From positions 1 to 46,975 of the forward strand of contig JAFTMR010000083.1 in NCBI GenBank assembly GCA_017452325.1: 46,975 nucleotides of DNA. Reading direction: 5' to 3'. Positions within the stretch are counted from its first letter, which is position 1, and every line of letters begins with the position of its first letter. The stretch comes from Phascolarctobacterium sp. (lineage in GTDB: Bacteria > Bacillota > Negativicutes > Acidaminococcales > Acidaminococcaceae). This document shows, one piece after another, positions 1,587 through 15,702 of this stretch. Made by a program: the position numbers and the translations under genes. Below the pieces are notes generated by a model. The model worked only from the letters and a program-made list of their open reading frames with translations. It did not search any database and was not told where the DNA came from.

Positions 1587-2357
1587 TTACCCTCTAAATA
1601 TCTGCACCCAGTAATGCCTGTATCCTTTGGCATCATCTTCCTTCAAAATATATCCTACCCCAAGTTCTTTAAACTGCGGGTCCAAAATATTTCTTCTATG
1701 ACCAGACGAATTCATCCATGACTGCATAACCTCTTCCGCACTACGCTGACCAGCCGCAATATTTTCTCCGATGCCGTAACCCTTTTTGTTGATTACGGTA
1801 TAACAAGGCTCTCCATTGGGACGAGTGTGGTCATATAAAATAGTAAGTTCCTTCGCCCTAATCGCTGCACCCTCTTGCAAATCACAAGCTAAGCGCAACG
1901 CTCGTAACCCTCTCTTAGTACGCTCTTCATTAACCAATTTTAAAATATTTTCTGCAAAATTCTTATCCACTTCCACATAGGTAGCGTTGGGATTTTGCTT
2001 TAGTCTTACAAAATTATCCTGTTGTGCCTCTTGGTACACATCTAAAGGAATTACATTAATTAAATATCTACGTTGGTAAGGTAATTTATAATCACCATTA
2101 ATATAGTAGCTCGCCTGCACAATCACCTTGCCAAGCTTGTACAAATACACCTCTTTACCACGTTCTGATAGAAGAATCTTTGCAGTACTATCAAGTACAG
2201 CATAATGCACATCACTTTGAGTATCCATTTTAAAGTAAGCACCTACTGGCATAAAAAGCTCTTCGTCGTAACTTGAAGAAGCATTGCACAGTTCAGTTGA
2301 TAAGCATAATACAATCAAGATTAATGTTACAATTATTCTATACAATATTTTTGACAT
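1587..2357 (-). CDS. Secreted CAP-domain (SCP-like) protein
   Basis: An N-terminal hydrophobic signal segment (KILYRIIVTLILIVLCLS...CNA) is followed by about 110 residues of unknown sequence, then a C-terminal CAP domain. Domain marks seen: LVNEERTKRGL, YDHTRPNGEPCYTV, GENIAAG, SGHRRNILDPQFKELGVGY and YWVQIFRG. These supply the His/Glu pairs of the CAP cavity. Bacterial CAP proteins are secreted or surface-exposed and mostly of unknown activity. The start at 2357 follows GAGGAA at 9 bases; in-frame starts at 2372 (ATG) and 2402 (GTG) are also possible. The gene follows the TPR-like gene by a short gap and is probably cotranscribed with it. Confidence 0.85.
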   Translation of the reverse strand: MSKILYRIIVTLILIVLCLSTELCNASSSYDEELFMPVGAYFKMDTQSDVHYAVLDSTAKILLSERGKEVYLYKLGKVIVQASYYINGDYKLPYQRRYLINVIPLDVYQEAQQDNFVRLKQNPNATYVEVDKNFAENILKLVNEERTKRGLRALRLACDLQEGAAIRAKELTILYDHTRPNGEPCYTVINKKGYGIGENIAAGQRSAEEVMQSWMNSSGHRRNILDPQFKELGVGYILKEDDAKGYRHYWVQIFRG

Positions 2358-2420
2358 TGTACAATTCCTCATCGTAAAAGCACCACCAACAATCTTAAAC
2401 ACTTACCCATCACATTCACC

Positions 2421-3260
2421 TCATAAATCATTATTTCTCGTCACATCTGTCATATAGTAAAGCAAAAATTCTTTGTCCACATTTTTAGCATCAGCAATCC
2501 ATAACCACTGCCTTTTGGCAACCGTATTCTCAAATAAATCATTGTAAAAAACATTTATGGTTTTGTGCTCTATCTTCTCATCCTCAAAGCCAAAGAATTT
2601 AAGTAAAAAAAAGCCTTTGGTTTCCTTATCCATCTTCTTTGCTTTCGCAAGCAATTCTTGGCACTTATCCCTATCATCTAGAACAAGATTAGCCAACGCC
2701 ATAACACGAACTAAATTGCTATTATCTTTCTTTTTCAGTTCAGCCTTGCATAAAGCAATGACTTTTTCCGCATGCTTTTCAGCTTGTTTTTGATATTTAG
2801 AATAGTTATTCCAAAACCTTACATCACCAGCATAGCAAGCAATGGCATAATCTAAGTTTGCCGTAATATCATCAGGATTTACTTCCAGCCTTTGCTTCAA
2901 AACAGCTTCCGCCTTTGCAAAGTAGCTTTTCGCATAAGATATACCACCTTTTGCACGCCAAACTTGTGACCCTAAAAGCAGGTAATCGCTATTAGAGGGT
3001 TCCAAAGCGCAAGCCTTGCTGATTTCAGATATTGCCTTAGCATACATCTTACTGCTTTCAATATTATCTCCAGTAATTTGCGCATTAAGATAAGCTTCAC
3101 AAGCACTGTTAAATAATTGCTGTCCAGCAACGCTATTAACACTTGCAGCTTGCTTAACGCTAGGTTGGATATTAGAAGCTACTACTTTAGCTTCGCCAGG
3201 CGAAACCTGCGTCAGTGTCGCCAATAACAATGCTGTTATACCTAATCCTAACCCTTTCAT
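2421..3260 (-). CDS. Secreted TPR-like protein of unknown function
   Basis: About 279 residues with a clear signal peptide (MKGLGLGITALLLATLTQVSPGEA). The mature part is helical, with TPR-like stretches: NSACEAYLNAQ, YAKAISEISKACALEPSNSDYLLLG and FAKAEAVLKQRLEVNPDDITANLDYAIACY. The recurring 'A..L.P.....L..G' pattern is typical of tetratricopeptide repeats. Such proteins act as periplasmic assembly scaffolds, which would fit the CsgG-rich neighbourhood, but the partner is unknown. The ATG at 3260 follows GGAGGTGCATGTT. A terminator separates it from the LPP20-like gene upstream, so it may start a separate transcript or depend on readthrough. Confidence 0.75.
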   Translation of the reverse strand: MKGLGLGITALLLATLTQVSPGEAKVVASNIQPSVKQAASVNSVAGQQLFNSACEAYLNAQITGDNIESSKMYAKAISEISKACALEPSNSDYLLLGSQVWRAKGGISYAKSYFAKAEAVLKQRLEVNPDDITANLDYAIACYAGDVRFWNNYSKYQKQAEKHAEKVIALCKAELKKKDNSNLVRVMALANLVLDDRDKCQELLAKAKKMDKETKGFFLLKFFGFEDEKIEHKTINVFYNDLFENTVAKRQWLWIADAKNVDKEFLLYYMTDVTRNNDL

Positions 3261-3277
3261 AACATGCACCTCCAACT

Positions 3278-3317
3278 AAAAAAGGGAATACCCTTTGAGA
3301 ACGCAAAGGATATTCCC
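3278..3317 (-). terminator. Rho-independent terminator after the LPP20-like gene
   Basis: On the minus strand GGGAATATCCTTTG pairs with CAAAGGGTATTCCC around a short loop and is followed by TTTTTT (complement of 3278-3283). The hairpin is strong. Confidence 0.85.
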
Positions 3318-3340
3318 TCAGAGTTACAGCACTCTTTAGA

Positions 3341-4447
3341 TTATTTTACAAAAACTACAGCAGCAGCGTTCAGCATTTGGGTATTTTCATTTGCCAACAA
3401 AATCTTATCTGCATCTTCAACAGAAACTACTACGTTTACAGGATTAACAGAGTTTTTGCCACCTTTTACCGCAACAGCTTTAACTACCAACGGATTATCA
3501 CCAGCGCGGTTGCCATTAGTTGCATCTTGAATAACATTTGCATAACCTACCATACCTTCGGAGATTGCTTTATCTTTATCCAAATTTGCCAAGCCATATA
3601 CTACACGACCATTGGTATCATAAATTACAGGTGCAAAGGTTGCTTCCAGACCCATATTATCAGCATCAACTACAACGCCGGTATATTTAACTTTTTTGAT
3701 TTCTTTAACTTCTGCTTTAGGCAAAACAGTTTCAGTAACTTTCGGCAACGGTTCAGGCACTACGTTTTTAGCAACCTCCGGCAATGCTACAGCGGCAACG
3801 CTCTTTTCTTTACCGAACATCGGGATGCTCATTCTTACATAGTAGCTACCATCTTCGTTAACACCTTCATCAACAACGTGTGCGCCTTTAACCAAAGCAT
3901 TAACCTTAGCTTTTACAGAATCATCAACTACAACCAAGTCTTGCAAAATGGTTTCAGAGTCAATTTGTACGCCTTGTACTGTTTCTGCCAAGATACGATA
4001 AGCATCTACGATTGCTGCTCTGCGTGCCAATGCAGTACCACGTTGACCAGCATTTTCAGGAGGAAGACCTACACCAATAGCTTCAACGTCAGCCTTTTCA
4101 CCCTTTTCCCAGTTAACAATACCTTTTGCATTAACTTCTTTTTGTTCTTGCACAACAGGTTGTTTAACTTCAACTTGTACTGCAACAGTAGTCGCCGCAA
4201 CAGGAGCTGCTACCTCTTTAGCAACGGGTTTCGGTGCCGCTTCACTAACAGGAGCTTCCGGAGTAGTTACTTCCGGAGCAATAGCTACAGGAGCAGTTTC
4301 GGGAACAGCTACTTCAGCAGCAACTGCGGGTGCGTTTTCAGGAACAACAGGAGCAGCTTCCGGAGCGTTTGCCGCACAAGTGAAGGAGAATGCCATGCTC
4401 ATCATAATAGCTGCCGCCAAGTTTTTACCGTTAATCTTTTTCATCAT
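3341..4447 (-). CDS. LPP20/FlgP-like secreted protein with Ala/Pro/Val linker
   Basis: About 368 residues. Order: signal peptide (KKINGKNLAAAIMMSMAFSF...), an Ala/Pro/Val/Glu-rich linker of roughly 80 residues, then an LPP20-like domain: VEAIGVGLPP, RRAAIVDAYRILAETVQGVQ, VKGAHVVDEGVNEDGSYYVRM. The final ~130 residues (TGVVVDADNMGLEATFAPVIYDTNGRVVYG-like) form a second domain also seen near LPP20 domains. LPP20/FlgP proteins are outer-membrane-associated, and FlgP builds a ring around the Vibrio flagellar motor; here no Cys lipobox is visible. The start at 4447 follows AAGGAATGAATTTT. The gene is probably transcribed from its own promoter near 4612 and ends at a strong terminator. Function is inferred only from fold family. 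Confidence 0.75.
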   Translation of the reverse strand: MMKKINGKNLAAAIMMSMAFSFTCAANAPEAAPVVPENAPAVAAEVAVPETAPVAIAPEVTTPEAPVSEAAPKPVAKEVAAPVAATTVAVQVEVKQPVVQEQKEVNAKGIVNWEKGEKADVEAIGVGLPPENAGQRGTALARRAAIVDAYRILAETVQGVQIDSETILQDLVVVDDSVKAKVNALVKGAHVVDEGVNEDGSYYVRMSIPMFGKEKSVAAVALPEVAKNVVPEPLPKVTETVLPKAEVKEIKKVKYTGVVVDADNMGLEATFAPVIYDTNGRVVYGLANLDKDKAISEGMVGYANVIQDATNGNRAGDNPLVVKAVAVKGGKNSVNPVNVVVSVEDADKILLANENTQMLNAAAVVFVK

Positions 4448-4609
4448 AAAATTCATTCCTTTCGGTAACGCCTTGATAGGCTGTTTAATTTTCTAAGGAG
4501 TAACTCTTGCGTTATCCCCTTCGTTGGTTAAAGTATAGAACCCAAAAATGTTTTAATTTTGTTGATTCTATGTCTTTTCTATGACATTTTAAAAGTTTTA
4601 TCTTTATCA

Positions 4610-4618
4610 ATTATACAA
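4610..4618 (-). promoter_or_regulatory. Possible promoter -10 upstream of the LPP20-like gene
   Basis: Minus strand TTGTATAAT (complement of 4610-4618), preceded by TTTTAAAATG. The same AAAA-GTTGTATAAT block occurs upstream of the large operon at 13912, suggesting a shared promoter or regulator motif. No convincing -35 was found here. Confidence 0.35.
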
Positions 4619-4634
4619 CATTTTAAAATTTAAA

Positions 4635-6785
4635 TCACCAAGTAAATCTATAACCTAAGCTTACTCCGTAAGGCTTTTCTACCTTGTTGCCAAAGTCTCT
4701 TTCAACTTCAAGGTAGAAGCTATTGTTCTCGTCAATCTTACGGCTTGCACCAATAGCGCATTTCACCCAAGTACCTCCCATGTCATCTTCAACGGAACGC
4801 CCTGGCGCACTTACGTGAATCTTACCATCGAAGTCGTGCATAACTTCTGCCTTACCGTAATATTCAATGCCTTTAATATTCTTACCAACTTGAATACCTA
4901 AAGAAGCAATATTACTATAGCTGTTATCTGCGTGAATGCGAGTACCATGGTTATCAGTAAAATCTGCACTACCAACTCTACCCCAAGTTAAACCAACGGA
5001 AGGTTCATAGTACCAATCGTCTTTAAAAATTCTACGTCCGTACTTAGCAGCAATGGTAAACAAATCCTTATCGTACTCACCTGCAACAAAAATATCATTT
5101 TCATCATAGCCTGCGTAGGATTTATCAAGCTTACCGTACTTAACTACTAAATCGACGTAGTCATTGTTCTTTTTGCCAAGCCAGCTACCATAAGCATTAA
5201 AACCATAACCCTTGGTATCGCCAATAGCTTTATCGTCACATTCGTTTGTAGAATAAGTAAAACCTACACCTGCGAACAAAACGCCTGCATCATTTTTATA
5301 ATCCTAGTCGTAACCACCACTCATAATGTTGTGGTCGTAACTAAGGTTTCTAATTTTGGTTTCACCAGTTTCACCACGAACCCATACACCAATTTCGCTA
5401 GGGTCAGTACGCAAATCATTGAAGCGTTTGAAGATAGGTTCTACGTCTTCGACGAGGATATTGTGATCTATTTCTTGACCATCTTCCTCATCAGCTAAAT
5501 TATTCCCAGCATCTCTTGTCGTCCAACCAACAAAATCATAGTTGTTTGTAACATTATCTATCGATTGTTGTACTATTGGTGTGGCAACTTTTGTACTATT
5601 TCCAAAATAAACGTCATTTGCCTTAATAACCATATCTGATCCTACAGGTGTTTTGACAATTGTAATTTTATGATTATCTTCAGGTCTAATATCAACGCCA
5701 TTATTGTCATCTTTATTTCTAAGTTGAATATTTAAACAAGCAGCAGGAGTATCACCTAAAAATTCAAGACTATCACCAATATTGTTTAATAAATCTGTTT
5801 TAAGCTCTATTTTACCAGTTCCATCAGTACTAAAATTTTTAAGTTTTAAATTTGCATAATCATCAATACTCCACATACTTGCTGTATTTAATGCTTGAAT
5901 AACAATCAAACCACCATTCAATACTACCCCTTCAACACTCTCTTCTTGACCTATGGCATCCCAATATGCCCCATCATTTAAACCTAAATAAAATTTTTCA
6001 TTACTACCTTCTATGTTTCCCCCAAAAACATCATTACTATCTAAGCTAATAGTTGTTTGAGCATTAGCTCCATGTCTAACGGTACCCGAAATAAATTTAG
6101 TGTCATTTATTGATGCAGAGTCAGACTCGATTAATAAAGTCCCTTCATTATTTATAATTAGTTCACTACCGTCACCGATATTACCTATAGAACTGTTAGA
6201 AACAAAAGCCTCTGCTATAAGGGACACATCTCCACCTTTAATGGTTAAAAAGCCTAAATTATTTATATTTCCATAACTCAAAAGATTAATATTTTGTTCA
6301 TCACCAAATCTTCGTCCTTCTAACCCTCCACTAAATTCTATTATTCCATTGTTAGAATTATATATTTCCCCCACAAACACAACTTTATCTGTAAAAACAA
6401 GTGCTTTATCATTATTTTCAATAGATCTATAACTACCATTACTAATATCATTAAAAATACATAAATCGCCGGTAATTTTAGTCTTCGCACTGTTTTTTAA
6501 AGTTGCGAATGAATAAACATAATCCCTGTCACTACGTTTTTGTAAATTAATAGTAATCTGCCCATCATCCACATTTGAAACTTCAAATTTTAGTATACCA
6601 CTGTCACCTGAAATACCGTTATCATCACTACTGGTAGACTTATCAACAATGTTGTTACTCGAAGTAGTATTTATGATAATTTCATTTCCTACTCCTTCTT
6701 TTATTTCAAACGTATTTGCATTACATACGTTAATTCCATTAAAAACAAGACTCATCAGCACAGCTTTCGCTAAACGCCTCTTCAT
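4635..6785 (-). pseudogene. Autotransporter interrupted by an in-frame TAG
   Basis: Read through one stop, this is a single 716-codon frame. Its order is signal peptide (MKRRLAKAVLMSLVFNGINVCNA), a passenger of ~430 residues with beta-helix-like repeats (SNNGIIEF, GNINNLGFLTIKGG, NNEGTLLIES), a linker (EPIFKRFNDLRTDPSEIGVW) and an autotransporter beta-domain of ~260 residues ending in YGVSLGYRFTW, a classic C-terminal aromatic beta-signal. The stop is TAG at the complement of 5304-5306 (codon 494). The paralogue just upstream has Trp in the same place: GYD-W-DY against GYD-stop-DY. One TGG-to-TAG change therefore splits the barrel; no frameshift is involved. As it stands, the 493-residue product keeps the passenger but has no complete pore, so secretion should fail. 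A sequencing error or strain variant is possible. Confidence 0.85.
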
Positions 6786-6843
6786 AAAATTCACCTTAAT
6801 TCTTGGAGCGGTCTTCGCCACCCTACATTTTTTGTATTAGAAA

Positions 6844-7821
6844 TTAGAAAGTGGTTCTATAACCCAAGCTAATTGCATAAGGTTTTTCAACCTTGTTGCC
6901 AAAATCTTTTTCTAAGTCAACATAGAAAGCACTATGCTCAGAAATTTTGCGGCTTGCGCCAATAGAACATTTTACCCAAGTACCACCCATATCATCTTCC
7001 GCAACTCGATAGCCATCAGTTACAACAATTTCACCATCAAAGTCATGCATCATTTCCACTTTGCCATAATACTCAATGCCTTTAATGTTCTTACCAACTT
7101 GTACACCTAAAGAACCAATCCAACTTTCAGTAGCTTTAGCATAGATAGTGTCATCATAATCACCTTTAAAGGTCGCACTACCTACTCTGCCATAAGTCAA
7201 ACCCACAGAAGGTTCCCAATACCAACCATCTTCCTTTTCAATTCTTCTGCCATATTTAGCTGCCATACTGAATAAATCTTTGTCATAGTCACGTGTTACA
7301 TAATCAACCCATGCTCCTGAAGCATCGAAAATATTGTCCCAAGCTTTAAACTCTTTATCCAACTTGCCATATTTAATTAAGAAATCGACATAGCTGTTAT
7401 CTTCTTTTCCCAAATAACTGCCATAGAATGTCACACCAACGCTGTCAGTATCACCTACTTCTTTATTATCGCAATCATTAGTAGCGTAGGTTACACTAAC
7501 ACCGGTAAACAGATATCTTGCATCATTTTCGTAATCCCAGTCATAGCCTGCACTCATTTGGTTGTAATCAAATTCTAAATCTCTAATTTTGGTTTCTGCT
7601 ACACCCCCACGAATCCATACACCAACTTCGCTAGGGTCAGTACGCAAGGCATTAAGACGTTTTTCTGTAGGTTCATTATCAATAACCATCAGTGCTGCAG
7701 GGTCATCTTGCACATATTCATATTCGCCATCATTCCCAACCATAGATGCCTCACCCACGCTCGGCAAAACACTTGCGCAAAGTAAACCCATCATAATTAC
7801 TTTCGCTAACTTTTTGTTCAT
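6844..7821 (-). CDS. Autotransporter beta-barrel with minimal passenger
   Basis: 325 residues: a signal peptide (MNKKLAKVIMMGLLCASVLPSVGEA), only ~30 residues of mature N-terminus, the RLNALRTDPSEVGVWIRG linker, and a complete autotransporter-type beta-domain ending YAISLGYRTTF (C-terminal Phe). It is closely related to the barrel of the interrupted neighbour: KYGKLDKE, YGRRI, WYWEPSVGLTYGRVGSA, GKNIKGIEYYGK and DDMGGTWVKC recur in both. With no passenger to export, it may be a structural porin-like barrel, or a helper for the adjacent protein. RBS AGAGGTG lies 7 bases before the ATG. It sits just upstream of the interrupted autotransporter, a local duplication. Confidence 0.85.
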   Translation of the reverse strand: MNKKLAKVIMMGLLCASVLPSVGEASMVGNDGEYEYVQDDPAALMVIDNEPTEKRLNALRTDPSEVGVWIRGGVAETKIRDLEFDYNQMSAGYDWDYENDARYLFTGVSVTYATNDCDNKEVGDTDSVGVTFYGSYLGKEDNSYVDFLIKYGKLDKEFKAWDNIFDASGAWVDYVTRDYDKDLFSMAAKYGRRIEKEDGWYWEPSVGLTYGRVGSATFKGDYDDTIYAKATESWIGSLGVQVGKNIKGIEYYGKVEMMHDFDGEIVVTDGYRVAEDDMGGTWVKCSIGASRKISEHSAFYVDLEKDFGNKVEKPYAISLGYRTTF

Positions 7822-7842
7822 ATAAGTACACCTCTTTAAAAT

Positions 7843-8490
7843 TTATTTTTTACGCTTGCCATATAATCTGTTTTCTAAAATTTCTACTGCATTATAAGCA
7901 GCCTTTTGGATTGCGTTATGCACGCTTTCCTGAGTAACCTTTACAGTACCAATAGTAATACCTGCATTAAGAGTATTGATATCAACTAAGCTACTTTTAG
8001 AAACACCCTCACCTTTCGCCGCCATCACAATGTTACCAGTAGTAACATCCATAATTCTGGCAATAATATGAGATTTAACAGTGCAAACATTAACACCACT
8101 AAGCAATGTATTTACACCTGTTTCACTAACGGTAACGTCATTTACATTTCCGTAAATCAGGTATTTGCACTTTAAGGTTTCACCAATTACCTTGGCGCTG
8201 TCAGGGTCAATCAGTCCTTCCGTTTTAACATGTGCCGCTTCTAGTTGGCTTTTAACCATATCCTTATCCATTACTTCAAGCTTGCCATCATTGATAAGCT
8301 TGGTAATAATGTATTCCGAAGACATCTTTTCAGCATTAGCAAGTGCTACGTCACTTGTCGCCGCACCGGGATGTGTTCCAAAATCCATTACTGCAACAAC
8401 GGCGTGGTCTTCAATTAACCCTGCCAAAGCAACACTATTTATGGAAAGTGCCATTAAAACTACCAATAAAATTCTTTTAAACAAATCCAC
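7843..8490 (-). CDS. CsgG-family secreted protein (short)
   Basis: About 215 residues with a GTG start giving a clean signal peptide (MDLFKRILLVVLMALSINSVALA) after AAGGGAAGCGTTTTT; upstream TTG starts give a worse N-terminus. The mature part is almost exactly one CsgG domain: HAVVAVMDFG, NDGKLEVMDKDMVKSQL, CKYLIYGNV, HIIARIMDVTTGNIVMAAKGEG and the C-terminal helix VHNAIQKAAYNAVEILEN. CsgG forms the curli export pore in the outer membrane of E. coli, where it is a lipoprotein; here there is no lipobox Cys. It is the last of three CsgG-type genes in the operon. Substrate unknown. Confidence 0.82.
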   Translation of the reverse strand: MDLFKRILLVVLMALSINSVALAGLIEDHAVVAVMDFGTHPGAATSDVALANAEKMSSEYIITKLINDGKLEVMDKDMVKSQLEAAHVKTEGLIDPDSAKVIGETLKCKYLIYGNVNDVTVSETGVNTLLSGVNVCTVKSHIIARIMDVTTGNIVMAAKGEGVSKSSLVDINTLNAGITIGTVKVTQESVHNAIQKAAYNAVEILENRLYGKRKK

Positions 8491-8503
8491 AAAAACGCTT
8501 CCC

Positions 8504-9322
8504 TTATTTAACAAATAATTTATTTAAGTCACTGTCAGCAACAAGGGCATCCACAATTTTTTGTGCTGCCTTATCCATTGCCTTAGTGTACAAATTGGTA
8601 TTCAATTTATCACTGCCAACAGTAATAAAACCAATGCCATATTGTTTTTGGTCACCAATACCGGTTACGCGCTTCGTCCATACTACCTCACCGGTGCTTG
8701 CCTTAATAATACGCAAGTCGCTTTGCACGCCAATACCAGTGCGTTTCATACTAAAGCTTCCCAACATTCCTAAAGGATTAGGCACGCCACCTGCTCCCAT
8801 AAGATTAGAAGCTGCTTGCAACGCTTGCGAAACTTTTACCGCATCTTCATCCCACCAATCACCAGTACCAAGATTAATGATGGTACCTTGGATAAGATAT
8901 TCCGCACCATGAGCTTGTCCAATGCGTGATGTAATTTGCGGGGTAATAAACTGTCCGATAGAAGCAGTAGCAATAGATTGTGCCTTACTTTCATTAAATC
9001 CAGGACCTTCAAACATAGCATTGTAGTCTCCATAGTAAATTGCAGACCTTACACCTTGTAGTTCCCTAAGCTTTTCATCGTATAACAAAGCTTCAATTTT
9101 ACCATCAATGGGCTTCGTTTCTTTAAGATTAAACTTACCTGATACCAAAAGCTTTTCCATAACTAAGTCAGAAAGCGAAGCTGCTGATTCAATCTTGTCA
9201 AAGCGAGTATCATCCGTAAATTTCATCAAAATACAAGTTGGGTTTTCTGCTGCGTGTACAGCACTTGCATATAAGGATGTGCAAAGTGCCAAAGCGGTTA
9301 AAGCAATACTAATCTTTTTCAT
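8504..9322 (-). CDS. CsgG-family secreted protein
   Basis: 272 residues, signal peptide MKKISIALTALALCTSLYASAVHA. CsgG-like marks: CILMKFTDD, VMEKLLVSGKFNLKE, HGAEYLIQGTIINL, GVQSDLRIIKASTGEVVWTKRVTG and a C-terminal amphipathic helix AMDKAAQKIVDALVAD. Between the core elements it has a glycine-rich, mildly hydrophobic segment (LMGAGGVPNPLGMLGSFSM), which in CsgG-type pores is where membrane-inserting hairpins occur; that reading is inference. RBS GAGGTG precedes the ATG. The next gene starts 13 bases after its stop, consistent with one operon. Confidence 0.78.
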   Translation of the reverse strand: MKKISIALTALALCTSLYASAVHAAENPTCILMKFTDDTRFDKIESAASLSDLVMEKLLVSGKFNLKETKPIDGKIEALLYDEKLRELQGVRSAIYYGDYNAMFEGPGFNESKAQSIATASIGQFITPQITSRIGQAHGAEYLIQGTIINLGTGDWWDEDAVKVSQALQAASNLMGAGGVPNPLGMLGSFSMKRTGIGVQSDLRIIKASTGEVVWTKRVTGIGDQKQYGIGFITVGSDKLNTNLYTKAMDKAAQKIVDALVADSDLNKLFVK

Positions 9323-9337
9323 TCCAGCACCTCGCCA

Positions 9338-10147
9338 CTATTTTTTAGATTTCTTCGGTTTTTTTGTTACGTCTTTCACGCCTGCCGGAAGATTTAAATA
9401 TGTAGCATCCGGCGTAGCAGAAAACTCCTTAATTTTCACAATAGCTTTATGTCCATCTAAAGTACCATCCGGCAACACATAGTAGGATGCGGCTGCAATC
9501 TTCACCATTTTATTACCATTGAAATAATATCTAATGGCTTCCATCGTGCCATCATTATTAGTACGATAGTCTTCATAACTTAACCCATTGTCAAGCCAAC
9601 CGGAATCTACATATTTATATACAGGCATATCTGCTGATTTATGACTTGGTGGTAAAATTGCTGTAAGTAAACGTGTCATAACTTGGTCTGCATAACTTTG
9701 ACCGCTAATTGAAATTGCTTGCATATTTTTGTCACGTGCACTTACTTTGTTCTTTTTGCCTTGATCGCCATAATAAACATTTTTCTTGCCGTTAAAGTGC
9801 TTAGTAAAGAAATAAGCCTTATCACCCTTGGTAAGATTACACATACGCATATGTTCATAACCAACTTCTTCGTATTTATCATCGCCATTAATAACAATAA
9901 TGCCATCAAATTGACGATTGGTTAAAAAATGCGCCTTATCTACTGCCATACCATCAAAGCCATAAAAATGCACCTTGTCTTTATTGGTGGCACGTGGTAA
10001 AGGAGTAATGTTTTCATATTTTAAAGTAAACTTATTGTTTACAAGCAGCTGACGATAAATATCTAAATGATAGGCTTCTGCATCACAGGCAAAACCTAAA
10101 GAAAGCAACATTGCTCCCATCAATAAAGTTTTGAACATCTTATTCAT
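9338..10147 (-). CDS. Secreted protein of unknown function, paralogue of the upstream gene
   Basis: 269 residues from the ATG at 10147 (RBS AAGGAGGGCTGT, lying over the stop of the preceding gene). Signal peptide MNKMFKTLLMGAMLLSLGFACDAEA. I do not recognise a named family. The C-terminal part resembles that of 10158-10955: a YYFNGNKMVKI strand, then IVKIKEFSATPDATYLNLPAG. The pattern 'strand, short turn, aliphatic-P-x-G' recalls LolA/DUF4412-like beta-rich periplasmic proteins, but this is a guess. The N-terminus YRQLLVNNKFTLKYEN matches YRAILQSGNFLVEYGD of the neighbour. The tail KKPKKSKK is strongly basic. Confidence 0.7.
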   Translation of the reverse strand: MNKMFKTLLMGAMLLSLGFACDAEAYHLDIYRQLLVNNKFTLKYENITPLPRATNKDKVHFYGFDGMAVDKAHFLTNRQFDGIIVINGDDKYEEVGYEHMRMCNLTKGDKAYFFTKHFNGKKNVYYGDQGKKNKVSARDKNMQAISISGQSYADQVMTRLLTAILPPSHKSADMPVYKYVDSGWLDNGLSYEDYRTNNDGTMEAIRYYFNGNKMVKIAAASYYVLPDGTLDGHKAIVKIKEFSATPDATYLNLPAGVKDVTKKPKKSKK

Positions 10148-10157
10148 ACAGCCCTCC

Positions 10158-10955
10158 TTAATATTCCTCAACCAGTACAGGCTGTTCAATCAAATCGTTC
10201 ATATCGCCAATACCAACTGCGTAAACCTTGCATCCTTTAGGAATAGCAAAGGTTTCAGGCGGAACTTCATTGGTAATCTTCTTTACTATAAATTCATTCA
10301 TGGGATATTCGGTTCCATTTTTCTTGAAAATCTTTTTAACGAATATCAATTCCCCATCGTCGTAATAATAAAGATAATTAGTTTCTGACATAACCGCACC
10401 TGTTTGACTACGCATAGCCATAACATACTTATCGCAATCATATTCCTTCTTATCAATTAATTCCTTACTACTACCAACGAATTTGGGTACAACCATTACA
10501 TCCGATTCAAATCTAAATGGATCGTAATTACACAATGCAAAAAACTCTTCTGGAACAGCCAAAGCGTACTGCGCATAGTTCCACCCACCCGCAGGATCAA
10601 GGCAGGGGTCCTTTAGTTGGTTCCAAGTTGCCATAGTAGCTTTCTTCTTAGATTCAAACTTGTAATATTTACCAGCTTTGTACAATGTATCGGGATAATC
10701 TTTTTTACCTTTACCACCAATACCTACCGCAAGACCTACTAGCCCTCCACCTTTGACCTTATAAGAGCTACGCTCCATACGCATATCATTTGCGGCAGCA
10801 ATTGTCTTGGTAAAATACGCATCACCATATTCAACCAAGAAATTACCCGACTGCAAAATAGCACGGTACTTATTTGCAGCCGGTTGTTCTGCAAAGGAAG
10901 TGACAGCCATCGTAGTCAATGCTAATGTCATTGCTAAAATTGATTTGTTCACCAT
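10158..10955 (-). CDS. Secreted protein of unknown function
   Basis: 265 residues, signal peptide MVNKSILAMTLALTTMAVTSFA. Like its neighbour it opens with YRAILQSGNFLVEYGD and ends with a beta-rich part: YLYYYDDGELIFVKKIF, then EFIVKKITNEVPPETFAIPKG. Both proteins thus share an N-terminal 'YR..L....F...Y' motif and a C-terminal 'P.G' motif while the middles differ. It contains GGGLVGLAVGIGGKGKK, a glycine-rich patch. GGAGG precedes the ATG by 4 bases and the following GTG by 7, so the start may be one codon later. It sits inside the CsgG operon and its role is presumably linked to that envelope complex. Confidence 0.7.
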   Translation of the reverse strand: MVNKSILAMTLALTTMAVTSFAEQPAANKYRAILQSGNFLVEYGDAYFTKTIAAANDMRMERSSYKVKGGGLVGLAVGIGGKGKKDYPDTLYKAGKYYKFESKKKATMATWNQLKDPCLDPAGGWNYAQYALAVPEEFFALCNYDPFRFESDVMVVPKFVGSSKELIDKKEYDCDKYVMAMRSQTGAVMSETNYLYYYDDGELIFVKKIFKKNGTEYPMNEFIVKKITNEVPPETFAIPKGCKVYAVGIGDMNDLIEQPVLVEEY

Positions 10956-10975
10956 TAAACCTCCATAATAAATTT

Positions 10976-12682
10976 CTAAAAACCGGTTTTAATCTTTAAT
11001 TGCTTGCCGTTATTTAAAGTAGTCATAAGACCAGTTTTACCGTAAATAGCATCTCGCACTGCCTTACTAATAGCGTTGCGAACTTGTACATCAGATACCA
11101 CAGCAGTACCAATTACGATGCTGTAATTTTCTGCAACTTCATCATAGGTTATAAACTTATCTTCAGTACTGGTACTAGTACTATTATTTGCTTTTGTTGC
11201 TACAGTGTCTTGGTAGTCGTTATCGTACTCATGTGCTCTTTCTCCATTATTAACATACTGGGAACTGCGGTCATCCTGAATATTACTATTGAAACTACCA
11301 TCTTGATTTCTTCTGCTTTCATCTTGGAATTGGTTATTCTCAAACTCATTAAAACTGCTTTGGCTACCAGCTTTACCCTTTAAACTTTGTTCATCTTTGT
11401 ACTGTGAATTATCGGTAATTGTACGATTATCCATCTGTTGATGTGTCGCATCCATATTATTGGTATACCTACGCTTATAATCTTCATCGTAGGTAGAACC
11501 ACCACTAACATTTCCTGTTTGGGTATTATCTTGAACGCCAACTCCTATTTTTGTTCTATCACTATGAGCTTCTCCACCAGAAGAATTTGTATAGTACTCT
11601 GCATCTTTGTTGTAAACAGTTACGTCCCAAGTTTGGTCTTGATTCTTACCCCAAACAGTACCCTCGGCAGGTCCGCCGCTCGTTTTAAGCCCAGAACTAC
11701 CTTCCTTCCAGTTACTATTATTAGTTTCGGTTTCAACACCTACTTGAACACCAGTCTGATTATATCGTTCTTGATGATGGTATCCCGTATCTTTATTATG
11801 AGAAATATCATCATTAATTCTTTGATTTACATCCAATGTTTCTTCTGAATAGCCGCGATTAGTATGCATAGAACTTGCGGAGCCAGATTGTCTACCCTGC
11901 ATATCAATTTGACTACTACTTTGCGAACTGCCGCCCCTATTAGAGCTACTACTGCCTTTATTTGTAGTAACATCAGAGAAATTCATATTATCATTTTGTA
12001 CATAACTATTATTTTGTTTATCAGTAATAGTTCTGTTGTCAGTATCCTTAGTCTTAGTATTTTGACGTGTAGCCTGTGTAATTACTTCATCTTTTATATC
12101 GTTCACAACTGTATTAGAAATGTTTTTGGCACGTAAATTTTCTTTTGTTCTATACTTAGTAAAACCAATCTCTGTCATCGTACTAGTGGAACTACCCTTA
12201 CCAATACCAGCAGCAACAATTCTACCAGTTTCAATATCTACAATACGTATTGCTACATTAGCATTTACTACATGTTGGGCATTACTTGCTTTGGCATTAT
12301 GCGCGCGTATACCCGCAATATTTTCTTTAGCAGTTAAACCAGTAACATTACCAATTACCATAAACTGCGCACCCAGAACTTTGCCCATTTGTACCGCTGT
12401 ACCCTGGTCTACCAAACCGGACATATTAATGGCATGCATTTTGGCAATGGTACTAAGCTGTTCGTAATCTATCAAATCAAACCAACCACAATTGGAAAGC
12501 TGATAAATTGCATATTCTGTAGCCATTGCCATATCATGACCACGCAATCCTCTACTGGTAATTGCCTTGTTACCAAATTCCATTACTGCAACAGTAGGAT
12601 AATCCTTTATATTAGCTGCACTTGCGAAATTAGCAGCCAAGCACAACATAGGTACTACAATCCATTTCGTAAACTTATTCAT
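10976..12682 (-). CDS. CsgG-family protein with large Asn/Ser/Asp/Gln-rich insert
   Basis: 568 residues from the ATG at 12682 (GAGGTGCAGTTT upstream). Signal peptide 1-22. Residues ~27-170 are a CsgG domain: YPTVAVMEFG, CGWFDLIDYEQLSTIAK, GAQFMVIGNVTGL, VNANVAIRIVDIETGRIVAAG. The domain's last helix reappears only at ~520-550: SIVIGTAVVSDVQVRNAISK. In between lie over 300 hydrophilic residues rich in Asn, Ser, Asp, Gln, Gly and Thr with regular Tyr and almost no large aliphatics; DNRTITD occurs twice. The shorter paralogue at 7843 joins the same two parts with only about ten residues. The insert looks disordered or amyloid/adhesin-like. No family for the insert was recognised. Confidence 0.8.
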   Translation of the reverse strand: MNKFTKWIVVPMLCLAANFASAANIKDYPTVAVMEFGNKAITSRGLRGHDMAMATEYAIYQLSNCGWFDLIDYEQLSTIAKMHAINMSGLVDQGTAVQMGKVLGAQFMVIGNVTGLTAKENIAGIRAHNAKASNAQHVVNANVAIRIVDIETGRIVAAGIGKGSSTSTMTEIGFTKYRTKENLRAKNISNTVVNDIKDEVITQATRQNTKTKDTDNRTITDKQNNSYVQNDNMNFSDVTTNKGSSSSNRGGSSQSSSQIDMQGRQSGSASSMHTNRGYSEETLDVNQRINDDISHNKDTGYHHQERYNQTGVQVGVETETNNSNWKEGSSGLKTSGGPAEGTVWGKNQDQTWDVTVYNKDAEYYTNSSGGEAHSDRTKIGVGVQDNTQTGNVSGGSTYDEDYKRRYTNNMDATHQQMDNRTITDNSQYKDEQSLKGKAGSQSSFNEFENNQFQDESRRNQDGSFNSNIQDDRSSQYVNNGERAHEYDNDYQDTVATKANNSTSTSTEDKFITYDEVAENYSIVIGTAVVSDVQVRNAISKAVRDAIYGKTGLMTTLNNGKQLKIKTGF

Positions 12683-12697
12683 AAACTGCACCTCTTC

Positions 12698-13786
12698 TTA
12701 CATACTTACTTCTAAAGTATTTTCCGTAGCTTTTTCCATAAATAAACTGTAGTTATCACGTAAGCCACGATAAATTTGAGTAGGTTTCAAATCGCTATCA
12801 ACTTCAATGATTCCTTTGCCGTTATCATATGAACGAATAAACGCTTCGTTTACTCCACCAATCTCTTTTAATGCTGCTTCCAATTTATAAATATTGTCCT
12901 GATTATCCGTCCTAACAATCACACGCATATACTTAGAAACATTGGCTGCCTTCATTGAAAATACTTTTCTGAGATTTTCAGCAGCGCTAATACCTAACTG
13001 TTTTACAGCTTGGTTTTCTGTATTGTTAGCATTACCCTGCATTCCATTAGCTTCCACTCTAAAGTTACCAATAATTTCTTGGGTATCTGTTTTCATAATC
13101 TTTACATCCAGCTCTGCTAGAGATTTAACCAAGCCCGTACTAACACTCGGATTATAGCTACTACCATTCGCTAAATCACGATAGCTAGGAATATTTACAC
13201 CTTCCGTATTTATATCAAGCCTTCCAAACGCAATGTAATCAGTTTCACCATTTCGTGTCATTACATTTTGGCGTTCATCTTTGATAACACCAGAATCTAC
13301 AACATGATTAAATCCAAGCTCAATAAGCTTGTTATTCATTGTTGCTTCACATATTGTGGGATACTTACTACGAACCCTTCCTTTACTATCATCATAGTAT
13401 TCAACAACTACCGCAATTCTTGGGTCATTGAGTAACATTATCATATTCAGCTTGTTCATCAATTGAGCATCCGGATTAGTATCAACGTCAATACGAGCCT
13501 TAACTCTGTATTCACCACTAAGTTCTGCTTCGTCCAAAATGTTAATATTCTTTACGAACCCTTGGGACTTGGCATAAATCTCATCCAATGCCACAACAGA
13601 TTTATCTACCAAAGTACGCGAATCTATATACGTGCCTATAACATTTTCTACCGCATTGCGCATCGCATCACGTACAGCGCTATCTTTATCAATCCCCACA
13701 CCATCAACGGTTACCTCCTGTGCTAGAGCAGCATTAGCAAATAACAAGCAGCCTGCCAATAAACTCAATACCTTTTTTACATACAT
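12698..13786 (-). CDS. FlgT/LPP20-like secreted protein, first gene of the surface operon
   Basis: About 362 residues. Signal peptide MYVKKVLSLLAGCLLFANAALA, then a FlgT-N/LPP20-like domain with the typical 'A...A...A' helix: VTVDGVGIDKDSAVRDAMRNAVENVIGTYI, followed by SQGFVKNINILDEAELSGEYRVKARIDVD. The C-terminal half has a second alpha/beta region (FGRLDINTEG, SLAELDVKIMKTDTQEIIGNF, ISAAENLRKVF). This arrangement resembles Vibrio FlgT, which supports the flagellar H/T ring together with FlgO and FlgP. No flagellar gene is present here, so a different envelope structure is likely. The ATG at 13786 was chosen; a GTG at 13798 sits inside the Shine-Dalgarno stretch. Family placement is tentative. 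Confidence 0.72.
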   Translation of the reverse strand: MYVKKVLSLLAGCLLFANAALAQEVTVDGVGIDKDSAVRDAMRNAVENVIGTYIDSRTLVDKSVVALDEIYAKSQGFVKNINILDEAELSGEYRVKARIDVDTNPDAQLMNKLNMIMLLNDPRIAVVVEYYDDSKGRVRSKYPTICEATMNNKLIELGFNHVVDSGVIKDERQNVMTRNGETDYIAFGRLDINTEGVNIPSYRDLANGSSYNPSVSTGLVKSLAELDVKIMKTDTQEIIGNFRVEANGMQGNANNTENQAVKQLGISAAENLRKVFSMKAANVSKYMRVIVRTDNQDNIYKLEAALKEIGGVNEAFIRSYDNGKGIIEVDSDLKPTQIYRGLRDNYSLFMEKATENTLEVSM

Positions 13787-13911
13787 ATTTCTCTTCACCT
13801 CGTCTTACAACTTTTCAGGTGGTGCAATATAAATTCACCCTATATTTATTTTTACAACTTTTTATGTTTTATCTGTGTCAAATTCGCAACTTCTATCACT
13901 GTTTATTCTAT

Positions 13912-14475: not shown

Positions 14476-15702
14476 ATGTATATTACTCGTCATTTAGAAA
14501 CACAAATTATAGAAGCTTCTAAATTTTATCCTGTAGTTATGGTTTGTGGACAACGGCAAGTTGGCAAATCTACCATGCTTAACCATATTAAAGAAGATAA
14601 CCGCAAATATGTAACTTTAGATGATAGAAATGCTCGTCGCCTTGCTTCTACCGATCCTGCATTATTTTTTGAAACATACGGCTACCCATTACTTATTGAT
14701 GAATTCCAACGAGTACCTTCCATCCTGCTTGAAATGAAAAAAATAGTTGACCAGAAGGCACTTGACGGTGAAGATAATAGTGGTATGTTTTGGCTGACTG
14801 GCTCGCAAAAATTCAAGATGATGAAAGATGTTTCTGATTCTTTGGCTGGACGAGTTGCTATTTTTGATATGGCAAGCCTTTCAACAGCAGAATTAGAACA
14901 ACGTCCAGCAATGTTGTTCCATCCTGCCTTACCATCCATACGCGAAAGATTAAAACATTCTTTCAATAAAAACATACAGCAAATCTATGAAGACATCTTC
15001 CGTGGTGGTATGCCCAAACTTCGTACAACCTCTCTTGACCGCGATCGCTTTTATATGGACTACATCAACACCTATATTGAACGCGATATAAAAGATTTAG
15101 CTCAGGTTGGAAAGCTAAATGAATTCTACGACTTCCTAGTTTTTATGGCAGCAAGAACTGGTCAAGAATTAAAATACGAAGACATATCTAATGCCATTGG
15201 TATTTCTTCCCCTACTGCTAAATCATGGATTTCTATTTTGGAACGTTCTGGTGTCATCTTTATCTTGCGTCCATATTTTTCTAACATTACTAAACGATTA
15301 GTAAAAACACCGAAGATTTATTTTATGGATACAGGTTTAGCCGCTTACCTTTGTCGTTGGCCTAATGCAGAAACATTAGCCAATGGAGCTATGGATGGTG
15401 CCTTTCTCGAAACATATGTAGTTAGTGAAATAGTAAAAAGTTATTATAATGCAGGCAAACCAGTTGATTTATATTATTATAGAGACATTGATAAAAAAGA
15501 AATTGATTTGCTCGTAGTAGAAGGCGATAAAATGTATCCTATTGAAATTAAAAAGAGCAAAGAACCCTCTAATCCAGACAAAAACTTCAATGTTCTACAA
15601 CAATTCAAATTAGACATTCAACCTGGCATCATCTTGTGTATGAGTTCAGAACTTATTCCTTACAATAGAACATCTTGGTATTGTCCCATCTCCGTCCTAT
15701 AA
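14476..15702 (+). CDS. AAA+ ATPase with DUF4143 C-terminal domain
   Basis: 408 residues. An N-terminal AAA_14 ATPase has Walker A GQRQVGKST (~25-33), Walker B LLIDEFQ (~72-78) and sensor-like WLTGSQKF. A DUF4143 region (~200-400) includes YIERDIKDLAQVG, a winged-helix-like stretch (ISNAIGISSPTAKSWISILE), FMDTGLAAYL and a nuclease-like end, EIDLLVVEG...YPIEIKKSK, with D and ExK in PD-(D/E)XK-like spacing. Family members are widespread, often multicopy and without settled function. RBS CGAGGTGAATTT. It is monocistronic, has its own terminator and is bracketed by related palindromes, as if moved as a unit. A different family member is at 38732. Confidence 0.92.
   Translation: MYITRHLETQIIEASKFYPVVMVCGQRQVGKSTMLNHIKEDNRKYVTLDDRNARRLASTDPALFFETYGYPLLIDEFQRVPSILLEMKKIVDQKALDGEDNSGMFWLTGSQKFKMMKDVSDSLAGRVAIFDMASLSTAELEQRPAMLFHPALPSIRERLKHSFNKNIQQIYEDIFRGGMPKLRTTSLDRDRFYMDYINTYIERDIKDLAQVGKLNEFYDFLVFMAARTGQELKYEDISNAIGISSPTAKSWISILERSGVIFILRPYFSNITKRLVKTPKIYFMDTGLAAYLCRWPNAETLANGAMDGAFLETYVVSEIVKSYYNAGKPVDLYYYRDIDKKEIDLLVVEGDKMYPIEIKKSKEPSNPDKNFNVLQQFKLDIQPGIILCMSSELIPYNRTSWYCPISVL

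Follow-up and report, generated by a model that had tools for sequence, protein, structure and literature searches.

The closest described system is CsgG, the curli secretion channel of E. coli, a lipoprotein that assembles as a nine-fold ring and is known to form a pore that has hardly any loops on its extracellular side. Related ring formers include PelC, which is outer-membrane-associated, and the FlgT and LPP20 families, which build periplasmic or outer-membrane rings and not export pores. In the CsgG-CsgF structure, residues F206 and F208 contact, in the upper part of the lumen, the helix of CsgF, which then exits the pore extracellularly (PMC7304575). Among open-access papers, nothing past a passing mention was found on CsgG in Negativicutes.

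Family assignment and fold of the split CsgG protein

The window, meaning the whole 46,975-nucleotide stretch of Phascolarctobacterium sp. DNA analysed here, is a contig of a draft genome that is 89.7% complete. A gene on its minus strand, with ATG at 12682 and stop codon at 10976-10978, encodes a 568-aa protein that is a CsgG-family member carrying a new kind of insert. The gene and its parts are as follows.

10976..12682, minus strand: CsgG-family gene with insert; the product has 568 aa and a type I-like signal peptide and lacks a lipobox
12614..12682, minus strand: predicted signal peptide, residues 1-23, cleaved between ANFASA and AN (site judged by eye), with a helix at 4-16 in the model
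12236..12604, minus strand: N-terminal part of the CsgG fold, residues 27-149, closing with beta-hairpin 1 (107-127, 130-149), from Pfam, model and fold match
12128..12220, minus strand: first strand of beta-hairpin 2 (TM3 equivalent), residues 155-185, from the model and alignment with E. coli CsgG
11159..12127, minus strand: insert, residues 186-508, low complexity, predicted disordered, ends partly kept between genera and middle not, from alignment, model and composition
11108..11158, minus strand: second strand of beta-hairpin 2 (TM4 equivalent), residues 509-525, from the model
10979..11107, minus strand: C-terminal helices of the CsgG fold, residues 526-568, from alignment of relatives and model

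In Pfam the protein matches CsgG (PF03783; E=6.2e-15, 55.5 bits against a cut-off of 20.8) and, also over the cut-off, LpoB (PF13036; E=5.1e-7). A single-sequence PDB search gave no match and a profile was needed. With the family profile, only CsgG chains fell below E=0.001 (4uv2, 4uv3, 3x2r, 6si7 and 6lqh, E about 4e-4), and apart from E. coli CsgG there was no match below 0.1. The nearest relative of the window is a MAG of Phascolarctobacterium from the caecum of roe deer, with 99% identity in the 568-aa protein.

In an AlphaFold2 model built with 34 relatives the core is confident and residues 185-505 have pLDDT below 50. The model contains two long beta-hairpins, with strands 107-127/130-149 and 155-185/509-525, and the strands of the second are connected by the insert. 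The top match of the model is CsgG both in Foldseek (6l7c, E=2e-8) and in VIA-align (6lqh, Z 13.6 over 175 residues, rmsd 3.5), at only about 15% identity in the structural alignment. LpoB (Z 11.8), FlgT (3w1e, 8z5n; Z 11.9), PelC (5t0z, 9h80; Z 12.0) and TolB rank below CsgG, all at Z 11-12 because the basic fold is common to them. E. coli CsgG (4uv3, 6l7c, 6si7) shares the fold and both hairpins and gives the best profile and fold match, and differs in having a lipobox, whose Cys was not found on inspection of the 568-aa sequence by eye, and in having no counterpart of the roughly 320-aa insert that extends from the tip of hairpin 2. LpoB is compact, and in a three-way alignment it has neither of the hairpin segments present in E. 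coli CsgG and in the 568-aa protein. FlgT shows no comparable insert in the fold alignment, and PelC is without a long insert. The original prediction of one CsgG domain interrupted by a low-complexity segment is borne out by the Pfam match and by the flanks, which model as a CsgG fold. The alternation of hydrophobic and hydrophilic residues in the hairpin strands is not clean. Residue alternation was accordingly dropped as proof of a barrel, and insertion of the modelled hairpins into a membrane is not proven by it.

The insert itself was correctly described as present and of low complexity; its bounds, first placed at 172-510, move to about 186-508, since strand 155-185 precedes it. Over residues 186-505 or so (about 320 aa) its composition is 12.5% N, 12.5% S, 10.3% T, 9.4% D, 8.4% Q and 8.1% G. 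In a charge-hydropathy plot it falls among disordered sequences, as its low pLDDT also suggests, and the core among ordered ones. The motif DNRTITD occurs twice; an exact repeat of seven residues was reached by 4 of 5000 composition-preserving shuffles, and the repeat is probably real, if minor. The short paralogue at 7843-8514 joins the same two CsgG segments, as predicted, with about ten residues in the insert columns, within a joining hairpin of about 30 residues between anchor motifs.

A curlin-like amyloid filament segment joined to its own export pore had been suggested for the insert, and the frequency of N, Q, S and G would fit it. The suggestion of a curlin-like segment did not hold up and is now very improbable: curlin repeats are absent from the insert by pattern inspection and by Pfam. 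For an adhesive or filament-forming character as such, the results point neither way. Neither curlin subunits (PF07012) nor CsgF (PF10614) gave a match in five genomes, among them the present one at 89.7% completeness, with E. coli positive as control for both.

Position, variability and probable exchange of the insert

The insert begins right after the residues aligned to FRFIDYQ of E. coli CsgG (precursor F206-Q212). Provided that the protein is embedded in the membrane in the manner of CsgG, the insert would lie outside the cell, because its insertion point adjoins the equivalents of F206 and F208; by this analogy surface exposure may be inferred and surface display is likely. The same position, next to the equivalents of the CsgF-binding residues, and the five genomes without a CsgF match could also fit an insert that folds back into the barrel as a plug, a gate or a built-in CsgF replacement governing export. 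A gate would be odd, however, with a middle unconserved between genera and a length of about 8 to 367 residues, even though the ends are partly conserved, and this alternative appears decidedly improbable.

Searches covered 100 relatives, the family and 380 Negativicutes genomes, with matches in 138 genomes of the class. Among 34 aligned relatives in Negativicutes the insertion site holds from 8 to 367 residues. The 568-aa protein and that of a rabbit-gut Phascolarctobacterium MAG (L033) are 85% identical in the core and 22% in the insert; for L074 and L075 the figures are 89% and 31%. The insert ends are partly alike across genera, with ..VVNDIKDE.. and ..NNxxSxxxxxNKxIxYE.. as examples. In one subgroup (match regions of L070-L084) the loop at the insertion site is short and conserved (NWIIPRQTNIIIGDGNTVNN), unlike the long variable ones.

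The insert of the rabbit-gut relative contains two type-I dockerin domains (Dockerin_1, E=4.1e-16). The claim rests on Pfam, because AlphaFold models the dockerin helices at low confidence and only the core of that protein well. The outcome that would have counted against the original prediction, an insert that proves to be a separate known domain, did not occur for the 568-aa protein but did for this relative.

One tract of the gene is shared with the sister species G001 (L032).

11170..12238, minus strand: tract shared with the sister species, probable recombination tract; its 1069 bp differ at 7 positions, the other 638 bp of the gene at 57

The two genes differ at 64 positions, 7 within gene positions 445-1513, approximately the insert and its first strand, and 57 elsewhere. 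Insert DNA is about 99% identical between the two species. Synonymous divergence (dS) is 0.39 in the N-terminal core, 0.048 in the insert and 0.52 in the C-terminal core (Fisher p=6.6e-15), and on this ground the insert has probably been exchanged between the two sister species by recombination. Elsewhere in the 380 Negativicutes genomes, insert DNA was found in the sister species only; two more matches, of 25 and 50 bases, are chance-like. Recombination of the insert accounts for the pattern most simply: for an assembly chimera two false joins would be needed, and the scattered differences inside the tract would stay unexplained, and strong constraint on synonymous sites in the insert is less likely. 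Neighbouring genes have 78-86% DNA identity to those of the sister species, except one ATPase gene further upstream at 96%. This ATPase gene (14476-15702, DUF4143-like by eye), with nearby genes at 80-87%, could represent another exchange.

Composition-like similarity and large length differences among relatives would fit a neutral expansion without function, in which a tolerant loop gains low-complexity sequence. Dockerin domains in the rabbit-gut relative and insert ends partly conserved in several genera speak against it, as do the few amino-acid changes since the exchange (2 nonsynonymous against 9 synonymous, a small number), and neutral expansion is considered unlikely.

Gene neighbourhood and neighbour-encoded dockerins

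The gene lies among conserved neighbours.

12698..13798, minus strand: upstream neighbour, FlgT-like (Pfam FlgT_N, sub-threshold, E=0.0042)
10158..10955, minus strand: conserved neighbour u1, without family, from Pfam and cluster comparison
9338..10150, minus strand: conserved neighbour u2, without family, from Pfam and cluster comparison
8504..9322, minus strand: CsgG-like neighbour (C), from Pfam and cluster comparison
7843..8514, minus strand: short CsgG paralogue (B), without insert, from Pfam, alignment and cluster comparison
3341..4456, minus strand: LPP20-like neighbour (Pfam LPP20, sub-threshold, E=0.003)

The order FlgT-like, CsgG with insert, u1, u2, CsgG-C, CsgG-B, variable gene slot, LPP20-like recurs across genera. 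The variable slot is occupied by autotransporters in Phascolarctobacterium and elsewhere by lectin, SH3 and peptidoglycan-hydrolase proteins, several of them with dockerins. In the rabbit-gut relative, a single case, nothing occupies the slot, and it is the CsgG insert that carries the dockerins. The CsgG-like/FlgT-like/LPP20-like cluster at 1587-13798 resembles a non-flagellar ring system. Its autotransporter gene (4635-6821) is read as two ORFs where L032 has a single 718-aa ORF, owing to a frameshift or an assembly error. The CsgG-FlgT_C and second FlgT-like genes that the sister species carries between its TPR and CAP genes are missing from the window (1587-3275).

The FlgT-like and LPP20-like neighbours suggest a wider ring assembly. 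Such an assembly could be a ring in the periplasm, comparable to the flagellar H-ring (FlgO/FlgP/FlgT), and the insert would then cross the peptidoglycan and not leave the cell. Matches of conserved neighbours to FlgT-like, FlgT_C and LPP20-like families (FlgT_N and LPP20 weakly), the similarity of the fold to FlgT, LpoB and TolB as well, and the peptidoglycan-hydrolase domains in some cargo proteins of the clusters are consistent with this. On the other side, the protein has both CsgG-type hairpins, which LpoB lacks, the fold comparison favours CsgG over FlgT (Z 13.6 against 11.9), and dockerins are known extracellular modules. Flg_bb_rod gave no match in the genome itself (89.7% complete), and membership in a flagellum was not found. 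A periplasmic location is on balance improbable, though it carries the most weight among the alternatives to a display outside the cell.

Dockerins were found in two of eight genomes tested, at the CsgG locus only. Dockerin-bearing proteins adjoin the CsgG gene in L034 (15187-20815), L036 (4405-6198), L095 (6292-7881) and L097 (9500-11275), and three of these four loci also encode lectin and/or peptidoglycan-hydrolase domains. The cargo protein of L095 had no Pfam match as a whole sequence; an 82-residue stretch of it matches Dockerin_1 (6.8e-11). For docking of the cellulosome type in the rabbit-gut relative, dockerins are at hand; Pfam cohesin gave no match in G000, G013, G019, G021 or the genome of L034, where a divergent cohesin could escape, and no cohesin partner for the neighbour-encoded dockerins was detectable in the genomes of L034 and L036.

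A proposed variable slot at the pore mouth

The split-CsgG architecture and the exchange of the insert are well supported. Building on them, the explanation somewhat favoured is a CsgG-family ring that presents an exchangeable polypeptide of variable make-up on the outside of the cell, where it would serve contact, docking or shielding. Against it speak the missing lipobox, the unclean alternation in the hairpin strands, the weak resemblance of two neighbours to FlgT and LPP20, and the identity of only about 15% to CsgG. The gene product would be a subunit of an outer-membrane ring, with two beta-hairpins per subunit building the barrel as in CsgG; this assembly, the barrel and the outward orientation are inferred from the likeness to CsgG. 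From the tip of its second hairpin, where the pore opens outwards, each subunit would extend a long hydrophilic polypeptide, and the assembled ring could thus place a crown of hydrophilic chains on the cell surface. The hairpin 2 tip would act as a variable slot whose segments differ by species, one of them with two dockerin domains of the calcium-binding type, and whose DNA may be replaced via recombination between species. The role of the insert at the surface is a guess, the most likely being contact with or shielding against things outside, i.e. adhesion, docking of secreted proteins, or evasion of immune or phage recognition.

A bolder and more doubtful extension is that CsgG rings of Negativicutes serve as a surface-display platform with a cassette slot at the pore mouth that is exchanged between species, and that in some species dockerins encoded in the slot or by neighbours could tether secreted lectins and peptidoglycan hydrolases at the pore via an unrecognised partner.

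New here are the variability of the site in Negativicutes, the dockerins in the insert of a rabbit-gut relative, and an insert that is near-identical between sister species with a divergent core. If CsgG-like rings do display at their pore mouth a large segment that changes rapidly and is exchanged horizontally, the export fold of CsgG would double as a surface scaffold in gut diderm Firmicutes, and there would be a natural precedent for domain addition at the hairpin 2 tip of a widely used nanopore.
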